Positions 23,511 to 32,273 of a stretch of 64,000 nt of DNA are shown here, piece by piece. Made by a program: the position numbers and the translations under genes. Every line of letters starts with the position of its first letter. Position 1 is the stretch's first letter. This DNA comes from Hydractinia symbiolongicarpus (lineage: Eukaryota > Cnidaria > Hydrozoa > Anthoathecata > Hydractiniidae): assembly GCF_029227915.1 (NCBI RefSeq), contig NC_079879.1:19541001-19605000 (forward strand), in the 5' to 3' direction. The notes beneath the pieces were generated by a model. It worked only from the letters and a program-made list of their open reading frames with translations, was not told the origin of the DNA and ran no database searches.

Positions 23511-24153
23511 GCGTATGAAATTATAATGGTCCGTGATTCTATGTGCGATTATCTTACACCCTAAACACATTAAATACTTTACATGTTCCAATTTTTTAAA
23601 AAAGAACCATTTTTAAGGAACTTGGTGTTCTTTAACAACTTATTAAAACATTGTTATAAAAGCGGAATGTATTGTTCTATTGTTACTCACAAGACAAGAA
23701 CGTGTCGTTCCCATAGGGAATTTGATGGAATTTATGTGACGGTATATATCGTTCCACTCTATTTGTTCCGTTGAATTCTTTTATATATCATAACGATAAT
23801 ATATGCGAAATGATTATCTTGAGGAATAGTTATTTAATTATGAATAGTCTGCAGTCTAATTTATATTGTGCCACTTGAAATAATTCCGTTTTCGCTGCTA
23901 CCTTAACTCTGCTATGGAGAGCGTCCTTCATTATAAAAAGGAATTGTTTTAATGAGAAGTTTCTCAACTAATACTTTGTATACGAAGTAAAGTATAAGGT
24001 AAGTTGTTCAAACTTTAAATTTATAGTAAATAGGATTCTTTTTTTATTCAAATGAATTCTTTTTTTTATCCTACTTTCTATGCTTTGTTAAAAACTAATA
24101 TTGTTATAAACTTTCTATAAATTTTGTTTCTAGAGAACTTTAAAGAAATCGGA
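23511..24153 (+). promoter_or_regulatory. 5' region of the recombinase gene with a probable 5' UTR intron
   Basis: A donor (AAG|GTAAGTTG) at 23,999 and an acceptor (TTTGTTTCTAG) ending at 24,133 define a likely 135-base intron. It joins a short untranslated leader to the coding exon 20 bases before the ATG. TATA-like words (TATATATCG near 23,743) lie upstream. No coding exon was seen between the element's left end and this intron. Confidence 0.45.
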
Positions 24154-25800
24154 ATGACAAAACGAGTCTTGCAAAAGCCTGCGTGGAAAGAGGCATTGGG
24201 AGCCTCAATGAGATCGAAAAGGCTTAAGTTAATGCCTGATAAAGATAACCGCTTTTGTTGTCCTGTGGCTGATTGTGACAGCGAGTCGTATGGAAGTAAA
24301 AGAGGGTGTAGAAAACATGTCTATAACCGTCATGGATGGTTTTATTATTTCGATAAAAGACCGAATATCGACGAAGTACTTCCCCACTTCAGTACGAGAA
24401 ATCGCATAAAAGATCCCCAAAGAAAGCGCGCCTGCACATTTTCAATGCCGTCTTTTGCTAAAACATGTAATTTGGCGGTTGCATTTAGGACATGGTTAAA
24501 AAGTCCAGGTGGTGGTGGTAAAGATCATTCTCAGGCCGATCAAATAACTTGTAAAGTTTTAAAGTATGCCAAATATTGCTGCGAGGATTCTCCTTCGGTA
24601 TGGGAAGTACCATTCCCTGTTATCGACTACTGTGTTGGCTCTATTAATATGCTTTCTGATTTCGTAGATTTTTTGAGAGACCAATGGAAGGTTGGCTTCT
24701 CAGGAATAATTGGCTACATGAATGCTATTGGGCACATGCTTGATTACAGACGAAGCACAGGTACGACTGAAAAAAATTTGTCGGTATTTGTTGCTGCAGA
24801 GATTTATTTGCACCGTGTTAAGAAATTCCTCCTTCGTAAAATGAAAGCTGAATGGAAGTGTATCTTAAGTGTTGAATATCTAAACAGTATAGACTGTTGG
24901 GCGACACTATATGATTTACAAAAGGTGATACCATACCATAGTGAAAAATATAAACAACTTGTGTTAAATGCTAAAAACGCAAGTGCATGTGTCGCAGCAC
25001 ACGATTTATCATTTTCGACTTCCTTCATAGTAGCTGTATTATTTTTAATGGTGAAGGCTTCAAGACCCATGACGTATCAAACTCTTACAGTAACAATGAT
25101 TAAAGGCGTGAAAGAGGATGGTTTTATAGATCAGAATGTCTTTAAAACTGCGGAGAAATACGGATTTGACTCTCTTTATTTTTCCATAGATGTACTCACA
25201 CTAATAAACGAATACATTGACAATGTACGACGAAGATTGAACCCCACCAACGATTATCTACTAGTGTGTCGAAATGGTAAGCAGTTGACGCGTATTTCGG
25301 ACGTATTCGGTAGAATTGTTTATCAAGCAATTGGTAAGTATATAAATCCTACACGATATAGGCAAATCATCGAAACCGAAAGTGTTGCACACTTAGAAAC
25401 AAAAGAACAAGCAATTCTTTCTCAAGATCAAAAACACACGTCGCAGGTAGCTAAAGTTCATTACCAGAAGACTGAATCGCGCAATATAGCTGCAAAAGCC
25501 AGGTTATGTATGGATAAATTACGAGATCAAACAACGTGTACTTTAACTGTAAGCGAAATCAATAGTAACACCAAAAATGTGAAAACGTCTGGAAGTACTT
25601 TGGAACACGAAACACCTGTTCAAACGAGACAGAAAAAAGTTAGTTTTAGTGCCATGGAGGACAAGTTTTTACAAGCTGGGCTACAAAAATATGGCAATGC
25701 AAAATGGACTTCCATTCTCGCAGATCCTAACTACTCCTTTCATTGTAGCCGTAAAGCTAGTACATTGGCGGTTAGAGCGAAGACAAAAAAATTTATATAA
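24154..25800 (+). CDS. Tyrosine recombinase with C2H2 finger and telobox-like Myb domain
   Basis: A single coding exon of 548 residues; the ATG follows a likely 5' UTR splice site. Domains in order: a C2H2-like finger (C36, C41, H55, H60, within a SKRGCRKH motif); a helical region compatible with a core-binding domain (about 110-240); and a catalytic domain with R304 (KASRPMTYQ), R403 (TRYRQIIETES), H428 and the putative nucleophile Y437 (KHTSQVAKVHYQK). The R-R-H-Y layout is that of phage-integrase-fold tyrosine recombinases, as in Cryptons; the first His of the HxxR box is not conserved. Residues 493-548 form a Myb/SANT domain of the telomere-binding type (MEDKFLQAGLQKYGNAKW, then ILADPNYSF). 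It would cut and integrate the element in the nucleus; the Myb domain could read the GTTACAA arrays or the TTA target. It converges on the ORF at 25,814-26,176 with 13 bases between the stops. Confidence 0.85.
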   Translation: MTKRVLQKPAWKEALGASMRSKRLKLMPDKDNRFCCPVADCDSESYGSKRGCRKHVYNRHGWFYYFDKRPNIDEVLPHFSTRNRIKDPQRKRACTFSMPSFAKTCNLAVAFRTWLKSPGGGGKDHSQADQITCKVLKYAKYCCEDSPSVWEVPFPVIDYCVGSINMLSDFVDFLRDQWKVGFSGIIGYMNAIGHMLDYRRSTGTTEKNLSVFVAAEIYLHRVKKFLLRKMKAEWKCILSVEYLNSIDCWATLYDLQKVIPYHSEKYKQLVLNAKNASACVAAHDLSFSTSFIVAVLFLMVKASRPMTYQTLTVTMIKGVKEDGFIDQNVFKTAEKYGFDSLYFSIDVLTLINEYIDNVRRRLNPTNDYLLVCRNGKQLTRISDVFGRIVYQAIGKYINPTRYRQIIETESVAHLETKEQAILSQDQKHTSQVAKVHYQKTESRNIAAKARLCMDKLRDQTTCTLTVSEINSNTKNVKTSGSTLEHETPVQTRQKKVSFSAMEDKFLQAGLQKYGNAKWTSILADPNYSFHCSRKASTLAVRAKTKKFI

Positions 25801-25813
25801 GTTTAAATTGTAT

Positions 25814-30400: not shown

Positions 30401-31722
30401 GAATGCTCGGGGAGATCCCTTTAAATTTGGCTTGACATCGAAACATTTTTTGGCGATGTTATAACAAACTCCATTTGGCAAGCATTCAATGTAATTGTAA
30501 TCCAGAGTTATTTGATCAATTATTTGACACTCGCCGTCCGACAGCAAAAATACCAACTCTCGTAAATTTGGCGTAATTTCGTTGGCGATTGCTTTGTTTT
30601 TCAACGAGCGATAGAGATAGCTTTTCACCGAACAACAGTAAACGTATGTGTATCTGCTTTCTCCTATTTTTTTGTATACACCTCCATTGCACAGTCCAAA
30701 GCTATTCCTCTCCATCATCCTTCGAACTATATCCACGGATTGACAAAGTTTGTTAGTTGGCTTAACGGGAATAGTTACTTCTGTGCCTATGCGTGTAACA
30801 ATGTAAAAACATGTTTTAACTTCTACAAAAAACTTAGTCTTATTATTGGAGAAGTAAGTAAATTTGTTCGTGGCAACTTACCTTCCGATTTATCAATTAC
30901 TTTTAAATCAAGCGATGTAAATCTGATTTCGGATAAACCACGAATTACATCTTGATATACCTCTTTATCAATATTTTTTGTTAGAATTAACTGACAGGGT
31001 TTCATCGAGTACTGTTCGCTTTCCATTACAGCAACGTGGTCAAGTTGAACACCTTCATCTCTAGCTGCACTCCTAATCATTGTGCGATGGGATATCTCAA
31101 CTATCCGTTTTGCTTCTTCCCTATTGTGGTCTTTCAAGACTTGGTATAACGATCCTGAGAATGCTTGCAATGCACTGGTTTTGCCTACAAATATCAAATG
31201 TGGCGTAAAATATTCGAAAAACATTGACAGTATTTCAAGTACTAAAAGGTTCAAGTATTTACCTCTTGTCTGTATAGCATTGCACGTTGTTAAATTCAAC
31301 CCGGCTTGCATAAAAGACTTCGACAAATTTGTTTCAAATTGACTTAAGGTACAGTTTGGCAAGTCGCACGCGATCCAGAAAGAAATGCCAGGAAATGTTT
31401 CAGGCGCATTTGCGCCGTTTCTGTTATCACCTTCACTGCTAGAGTCGGCTCCTTCTTCTTCCTCCCCTTCATTCCTCATCGACTTTCTCTTACGAGGTCT
31501 GGCCATATAGGTAATACAAGAAAAAAAACAGGATACTTGTTCGTTGCTAAGCAATATGTTCTCCATCTGCATTCTCTTGCCCCAAATGACCTCGCGGGCA
31601 TCAACATCACTTCCCCACATCGCACGAACGGCTACTACCTGATATTTTCTTATTACCGGTTGGACGATGCATGCCTTCAGGGCGCGTTTCAAAACTTCAC
31701 TTCGCAGTTGCCTGTTAGCCAT
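27471..31722 (-). CDS. Superfamily-3 helicase protein, seven exons
   Basis: Exons (minus strand): 31,722-31,263; 31,184-30,882; 30,786-30,346; 29,100-28,942; 28,870-28,724; 28,662-28,456; 28,375-27,471. Every intron is GT-AG and phase 1, giving an uninterrupted 873-residue protein. SF3 motifs: Walker A GPPDSGKTS (440-448), Walker B VVFMDEW (482-488), B' LIGGLVMIPQKHKEP (510-524), motif C FFITTN (533-538) and an arginine pair RR (554-555). The N-terminal 400 residues contain a basic-acidic segment (MARPRKRK) and no HUH endonuclease motif that I can see. The C-terminus has a long Glu-rich stretch and ends with two SUMO-interacting motifs, IDLVSDDE and VICISSDEE. SF3 helicases unwind DNA at replication origins of small viruses. 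Here it would drive replication of the element. A repeat array lies in intron 3. The alternative start at MARPRKRK would shorten the N-terminus. Confidence 0.83.
29131..30320 (+). repeat. Iteron-like array 2: eleven ~102 bp units, each with GTTACAA sites, inside a helicase intron
   Basis: After one partial unit, eleven units start near 29,203, 29,303, 29,405, 29,507, 29,609, 29,710, 29,813, 29,916, 30,017, 30,118 and 30,220 (101-103 bases). Each unit has GTTACAA at offsets 0, 10, 20, 30 and 52 and a degenerate GTTAAAA at 62. This is exactly the site spacing of array 1 read on the opposite strand, although spacer sequences and unit length differ. The array fills most of intron 3 of the helicase gene (29,101-30,345). 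Confidence 0.97.
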
Positions 31723-31782
31723 GTTCTGCTAAGTAATACAAACGAATGCTGTAGCGGAACAAAAATAATCTCCTATGGTTAT

Positions 31783-32273
31783 ATATTATTATTATTATTA
31801 TTATTATTATTATTATTATTATTATTATTATTATTATTATTATTATTATTATTATTATTATTATTATTATTATTATTATTATTATTATTATTATTATTAT
31901 TATTATTATTATTATTATTATTATTATTATTATTATTATTATTATTATTATTATTATTATTATTATTATTACTATTATTATTATTATTACTATTATTATT
32001 ATTATTATTATTATTATTATTATTATTATTATTATTATTATTATTATTATTATTATTATTATTATTATTATTATTATTATTATTATTATTATTATTTTTA
32101 TTATTATTATTATTATTATTATTATTATTATTATTATTATTATTATTATTATTATTATTATTATTATTATTATTATTATTATTATTATTATTATTATTAT
32201 TATTATTATTATTATTATTATTATTATTATTATTATTATTATTATTATTATTATTATTATTATTATTATTATT
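31783..32273. repeat. (TTA)n microsatellite, right of the inserted element
   Basis: About 490 bases of almost pure TTA with rare substitutions (ACTATTATT twice, one TTTTTATT). It is the right-hand continuation of the tract at 23,435-23,506. Frames through it (poly-Leu, poly-Tyr) are artefacts. Confidence 0.97.

Follow-up and report, generated by a model that had tools for sequence, protein, structure and literature searches.

A recently active family of Hydractinia DNA transposons that appears to pair a tyrosine recombinase with an SF3-type helicase and iteron-like arrays

Introduction

How does a DNA transposon that moves by means of a tyrosine recombinase gain copies? To our knowledge this has not been worked out for Crypton-like elements, and a locus of the hydrozoan Hydractinia symbiolongicarpus raises the question directly. 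The locus lies in a stretch of 64,000 bases (NC_079879.1, positions 19,541,001 to 19,605,000; hereafter the window), where a tyrosine recombinase gene and, on the opposite strand, a gene with the motifs of a superfamily 3 (SF3) helicase sit together inside one TTA microsatellite. Our reading, to which we give a probability of about 0.72, is that they form a recently active family of Hydractinia DNA transposons that moves as a circle by site-specific recombination, carries its own SF3 helicase and iteron-like sites, and probably replicates before reinsertion. Within Hydractinia, the genomic copies give good support to a single element with fixed ends, to recent mobility and to linkage of the two genes; helicase-driven replication at two arrays of GTTACAA sites is the most likely role that we infer for the second gene.

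Results

Both genes belong to one element with common ends

The H. symbiolongicarpus assembly (480.9 Mb) was searched with the recombinase and helicase exon 7 as queries, with match lists that are lower bounds. The recombinase gave at least 56 matches, and 21 places span at least 546 of its 548 residues, 16 of them without an internal stop. In all 21, helicase exon 7 was found on the opposite strand, 0.8-1.9 kb from the recombinase; its match is split into two pieces at three of these places and into four at one. Moreover, ten more fragmentary places carry pieces of both genes. At two places on contig C6 (C6:32958880-32960143 and C6:16571180-16572556) the matches comprise only the 3' ends of both genes plus the intervening stretch; such places may be fragments from within the element, or non-autonomous derivatives.

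A 10-kb stretch was retrieved for each of the 20 remaining near-full-length places. Searched with the outermost 100 bases of either end, 19 of these stretches have the left end and all 20 the right end, the match in L042 being truncated. Copies with exact 20-base ends were called complete: 18 of the 20 (L038 and L042 are excluded) and the window copy, making 19 copies of 6815-8936 bases, among which array size differs. The ends that these copies have in common place the element proper of the window copy at 23511-31778 (8268 bases). A first-pass annotation, made from the letters of the window alone, had proposed a single element holding both genes, to be checked by their co-occurrence at other loci and by the coincidence of ends between copies; both checks were run here, and within Hydractinia both bear the proposal out. 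Its left boundary also stands; its right limit, 31785, takes in the seven bases of the right core.

The element is flanked by two 7-base cores, TTATATA, at 23504-23510 (left) and 31779-31785 (right). Both are real matching junctions inside one TTA microsatellite, as had been noticed at first pass. The left part of this microsatellite occupies 23435-23507 and the right part 31779-32273, and it is the sole tract with at least five exact TTA units in the window. The outer left core of complete copies is TTATATA in 14 of 14 cases. Among the 14 outer right cores, the window copy included, TTATATA was found seven times, TTATTAT six times and TTATGAT once, so that half of the right ends differ from the left core. 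A TTA tract lies beside 13 of the 14 outer left ends (the exception is L040) and beside every outer right end. A staggered exchange in which the element contributes a TTATATA core and the target a TTATTAT could leave this pattern; the left/right polarity of the cores is not accounted for by such an exchange.

The copies are young. With the arrays excluded, 17 of the 18 complete copies differ from the window copy by 0.20-0.45% substitutions (5.7-5.9 kb compared, gaps not counted), and L040 by 1.15%. An older copy on contig C7 (L043), with 83-96% identity by segment, starts in a short TTA tract, keeps the order of recombinase and helicase, and has detectable exons 2-6.

Tandem copies carry the junction expected of a circle

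Head-to-tail copies were found on three contigs, two on C9, two on C10 and four on C4. Their five junctions all consist of a right end, seven bases and a left end, the seven bases being TTATATA in four and TTATATT in one (L034/L037, on C4). A right end and a left end joined through a single core is the junction that would be expected of an excised circle. When joined, the ends form imperfect inverted 14-base arms (10 of 14 positions matching) around TTATATA; among random pairs drawn from the element, 0.44% have arms that match at 8 or more of 12 positions. In described recombination sites of this enzyme class the arms measure 11-13 bases and the core 6-8 (PMC3212892), and the copies and junctions bear the sequence signs of such a 6-8 base core with inverted arms.

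Tandem junctions could arise when a circle integrates next to an existing copy, or when a copy is amplified where it stands. On C9 the two units differ from one another in their arrays and in aligned length, and so do the two C10 units. All four C4 units have the same aligned length, a shorter one (5702), which suggests that this tandem arose by local amplification.

A tyrosine recombinase with a telomere-protein-like Myb domain

The recombinase (24154-25800, plus strand) is encoded in a single frame of 548 aa and comprises an N-terminal C2H2-like motif, a core-binding domain, a catalytic domain and, at about residues 494-547, a C-terminal TRF1-like Myb domain. It is 99% identical over its whole length to a deposited H. 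symbiolongicarpus protein (P0001). R304, R403, H428 and Y437, named at first pass as the catalytic residues of a full-length enzyme, are indeed at those positions, and R, R, H and Y are kept in 116 of the 118 relatives that cover these columns (120 listed). Since R401 (120 of the 120 listed relatives) and R403 (119 of 120) are equally conserved, either could be the second catalytic arginine. The predicted model has a Cre/Xer-type fold with core-binding and catalytic parts; one family fills the top ranks of the fold matches, which is a stronger point than the score. Among viral proteins, the model is matched best by a tyrosine recombinase from Heterosigma akashiwo virus 01 (BFVD, E 8.7e-5).

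No DUF3504 match was found among 23 members of the recombinase family, and a pattern scan of IMG/VR and prokaryote genomes, which reaches sequences holding the chosen short patterns, returned no relative. A second recombinase-like match in the window (60211-60390) was set aside as chance; no other family member supports it. Upstream of the recombinase frame lies a left-end region of 643 bases (23511-24153, plus strand), in which we noted by eye a TATA-like TATAAAA near 23932 and a candidate intron of the 5' untranslated region at 23999-24133.

The opposite strand encodes a putative SF3 helicase

The helicase gene runs from 31722 to 27471 on the minus strand, in seven exons separated by six GT-AG introns, all of phase 1. 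Exons 1 to 3 occupy 31263-31722, 30882-31184 and 30346-30786. Exon 4 (28942-29100) contains Walker A, GPPDSGKT (28964-28987), exon 5 (28724-28870) contains Walker B, VVFMDEW (28770-28790), exon 6 (28456-28662) contains motif C, GFFITTN (28559-28579), and exon 7 (27471-28375) encodes an acidic C-terminal tail. With B' placed by eye in exon 6, the motifs follow the SF3 order A, B, B', C, in agreement with the seven-exon opposite-strand gene of the first reading.

The first half of the helicase corresponds to a deposited Hydractinia protein, P0123 (LOC130621979, 483 aa), from which it differs at four of 473 aligned residues. This protein confirms the joins of exons 2-3 and 3-4 and the upstream start at 31722 (a later ATG is at 31506), and it reads intron 1 as coding; the remaining joins are placed by splice signals alone. 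P0123 leaves the reading frame of the window inside Walker A, and probably represents another copy of the element, broken at that point. It had no Pfam match, and its predicted fold was uninformative (pLDDT 37).

Exon 3 is related to two sequences from other sources, at 49% and 46% identity, both of which retain the exon-end residues. For exon 6, the best curated profile is the C-terminus of P4-family primases, TIGR01613 (E 8.6e-4, 18.3 bits vs a cut-off of 108.7), with weak matches to related primase or DUF5906 profiles besides; exon 4 gave weak P-loop-type matches only, and matches to PHROG were only weak. No primase domain was found among the Pfam matches of the scanned ORFs, a solved-structure search with exons 4 and 6 gave no useful match, and the same kind of pattern scan of IMG/VR, limited to sequences that hold the chosen short patterns, found no relatives of exons 3 and 6.

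Note that only 56 bases separate the helicase start from the right core, which on that strand reads TATATAA. Since so little of the element precedes the gene, a full promoter may need the 643-base left end upstream, as in a circle or tandem junction. From the coordinates alone, it is thus possible that circularisation completes the helicase promoter.

A possible third small ORF of about 120 aa (25814-26176, minus strand) is uncertain and has no Pfam match. It holds a basic stretch and the sequence VCLSDDE, which is similar to the end of helicase exon 7, VICISSDEE, and which we take to be perhaps a SUMO-interacting motif.

Two inverted arrays share a six-site lattice

Beyond what the first-pass annotation had described, the element carries two inverted arrays built on one six-site GTTACAA lattice. 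Array A (26301-27383, minus strand) lies between the two genes and has a 122-base unit; array B (29154-30314, plus strand) lies in helicase intron 3 and has a 102-base unit. In both, and in opposite orientations, GTTACAA recurs at offsets 0, 10, 20, 30, 52 and 62. The lattice is complete in 8 of the 9 units of array A, the ninth having its last two sites displaced, and is present in 10 of 10 units of array B, with the last two sites at most 1 base off. The filler of the A and B units shares no word longer than six bases. Neither array is missing from any of the 19 complete copies; four-site runs number 3-10 and 4-17 per copy, respectively. The older copy L043 has small clusters of sites in place of long arrays: TTGTAAC occurs five times, four of these in a cluster, and GTTACAA three times, spaced 10 bases apart.

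The phasing of the sites suggests a bound oligomer. SF3 proteins are hexameric, and a helicase of six subunits would be a fitting reader of units with six sites. Each site also contains TAAC, which we take to resemble a Myb core site, so an equally simple reader would be the recombinase with its Myb domain.

A link between the lattice and phage replication origins was rejected as background. Under a criterion of four sites at 10-base spacing, GTTACAA gave 7 loci on 6 IMG/VR contigs vs 1 and 5 for two control words of equal base make-up. None of six large ORFs scanned near these sites matched an SF3 profile at 0.001; they comprised a DnaG/PRK07078-like primase (L002), two lysis-type enzymes, one RadD-like helicase and two ORFs with no match.

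Other features of the window

Outside the element, three segments are duplicated: one of about 2.4 kb in direct order at 38718-43237 (93-98% identity by block), a second at 51901-57490 (spacing about 4.5-4.7 kb, 90-100%) and a third at 12915-20938 (spacing about 6.1-6.5 kb, 76-95%). Two single-frame ORFs lie on the minus strand, one of 438 aa (48765-50078) that belongs to the Major Facilitator Superfamily (E 1.7e-20) and one of 351 aa (61212-62264) with a weak match, below cut-off, to the C-terminal domain of replication factor A (E 0.011).

Discussion

A proposed cycle and its weak points

We propose that the recombinase would excise the element at its 7-base cores, giving a circle whose junction would have the imperfect arms around TTATATA. 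With the GTTACAA arrays as its possible loading sites, the SF3 helicase would then open the circle for copying by host polymerases, and the copies would reinsert either in TTA tracts or next to an existing copy. The helicase promoter would perhaps be complete only when a circle or tandem junction sets the left end upstream, and the TRF-like Myb domain of the recombinase may act as a second reader, either of the arrays or of the repetitive target.

Several observations weigh against this reading. Circles, replication and array binding are proposals made from sequence. The SF3 assignment depends on motif order and on weak single-exon matches, with no SF3 profile at its curated cut-off. The fold score of the recombinase model is at a level that helical proteins can reach by chance, its best Foldseek match had an E of 1.6e-3, with none below 0.001, and around the tyrosine, at 430-437, the confidence of the model is low. 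The choice of the core preceded the measurement of the arm match. Tandem copies can also arise by unequal crossing-over, and the C4 pattern fits local amplification. As for the arrays, a shuffle is a weak control for tandem repeats, and the IMG/VR comparison with control words indicates that GTTACAA at 10-base spacing also arises by chance. Within the genome, six recombinase fragments have no listed exon 7 match nearby (C3:18271891-18272936, C7:18135570-18136357, C1:8958641, C1:11128637, C3:9881282 and C11:25056583), and for one exon 7 match (C7:16664729-16665203) the list shows no recombinase. Finally, relatives of the recombinase number 662 in the protein collection against 2 for helicase exon 3 (and 1 in another search); many relatives may therefore do without a helicase, with the caveat that a single exon is harder to find.

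Alternative explanations

The two genes could have met by chance in one TTA tract, as two unrelated mobile elements or as a recombinase element and a host gene. Such neighbours would be in keeping with the description of animal Cryptons without other domains (PMC3212892), with the excess of recombinase relatives over those of exon 3 and with the few fragments that have no partner gene. At all 21 near-full-length places, however, recombinase and helicase exon are arranged convergently in the same way, the common ends enclose both genes in the 19 complete copies, and the gene order survives in the older copy. This linkage refutes chance association for Hydractinia, and we give it almost no credence. 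We also think it quite improbable that a polinton-like virus or virophage gave rise to the element by reduction, losing its capsid genes and persisting as a transposon. Those viruses do integrate and do carry a tyrosine recombinase and an SF3 helicase (PMC4642659, PMC12220804), and the best viral match of the recombinase model comes from the Heterosigma virus. Yet no capsid family is among the Pfam matches of the scanned ORFs, the pattern scan of IMG/VR found relatives of neither the recombinase nor helicase exons 3 and 6, the helicase gene has six introns, and PHROG matches are only weak.

A third explanation leaves the element intact and changes the role of its parts: the helicase would serve transposition or regulation, the recombinase would bind the arrays through its Myb domain as enhancers or accessory sites (compare the arm-type sites of lambda integrase), and copies would rise by ordinary host replication. 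The TRF1-like domain itself, the TAAC in every site, which we assume to be Myb-like, and the location of one array within an intron all speak for it. Known SF3 helicases, by contrast, act in replication, and the iteron-like arrays are retained in 19 of 19 complete copies, which is also compatible with accessory sites. We regard this explanation as rather unlikely, and continue to prefer a circle that replicates by means of its own helicase. Only tentatively would we go further and place the element in a separate, plasmid-like class of animal mobile elements, in which the excised circle switches on its SF3 helicase at the junction, replicates from paired six-site iteron arrays and reinserts in TTA microsatellites through a recombinase with a telomere-protein-like Myb domain.

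Comparison with known systems

What Hydractinia offers is a Crypton-related element with its own helicase gene and origin-like sites, young and present in many near-identical copies, in a laboratory hydroid where circle formation, replication and microsatellite targeting are directly testable. A published family with the same gene set was sought, as the first-pass annotation had advised, and no such animal transposon was among the matches listed from the published literature (preprints and repeat libraries lie outside this search). That annotation had also surveyed the known families: its statement that Cryptons carry the recombinase alone agrees with the description of animal Cryptons, and its survey omitted the polinton-like viruses and virophages, which pair the two genes (PMC4642659, PMC12220804). 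Its interpretation, a self-replicating and virus-like transposon class, is supported in part: within Hydractinia the copies bear out one element with both genes, and self-replication and viral derivation are proposals.

P4-family phage and plasmid primase-helicases provide the best curated profile for helicase exon 6; they differ in that one exon matched, far below cut-off, with no primase domain among the Pfam matches. The yeast 2-micron plasmid is a nuclear circle with its own tyrosine recombinase, as we propose for the excised element, but stays extrachromosomal, is replicated by the host and is not known to carry an SF3 helicase.

The integrases of crustacean telomere-repeat nimaviruses are likewise C2H2 zinc-binding tyrosine recombinases of elements in a microsatellite, whereas those elements are giant viral genomes in TAACC repeats (PMC10871703); the likeness drawn here is one of description, and offers a parallel for the choice of target. 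The polinton-like viruses and Sputnik-like virophages are described as integrating eukaryotic elements with this same gene pair and a proposed circular donor (PMC4642659, PMC12220804). Theirs are elements of 14-40 kb (PMC12220804) with capsid and packaging genes (PMC4642659), in contrast to the Hydractinia element, in whose scanned ORFs no major capsid protein or packaging ATPase family was among the Pfam matches. The element would bridge capsid-free transposons and small integrating DNA viruses.

Cryptons are the nearest transposons. They are described as tyrosine-recombinase DNA transposons without reverse transcriptase and with a proposed circular intermediate (PMC3212892), and the same can be said of the Hydractinia element as regards its mobility, seen from the copies, and its scanned ORFs, where no reverse transcriptase was among the Pfam matches, which sets it apart from DIRS and Ngaro elements. 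Short terminal direct repeats are reported for fungal and stramenopile Cryptons, with published lengths of 4-6 bases vs 7 here; the TATGG termini of CryptonS also resemble the TATGG at the right end of the element, a single five-base match to which we give no weight. Animal Cryptons are described as having no other domains, no C-terminal domain and no terminal repeats; some CryptonS and CryptonF add a C48 peptidase (PMC3212892, 2011). The Hydractinia element departs from the description of animal Cryptons, with a helicase exon at 21 of 21 places, two iteron-like arrays, a TRF-like Myb C-terminus on its recombinase and a 7-base terminal repeat.

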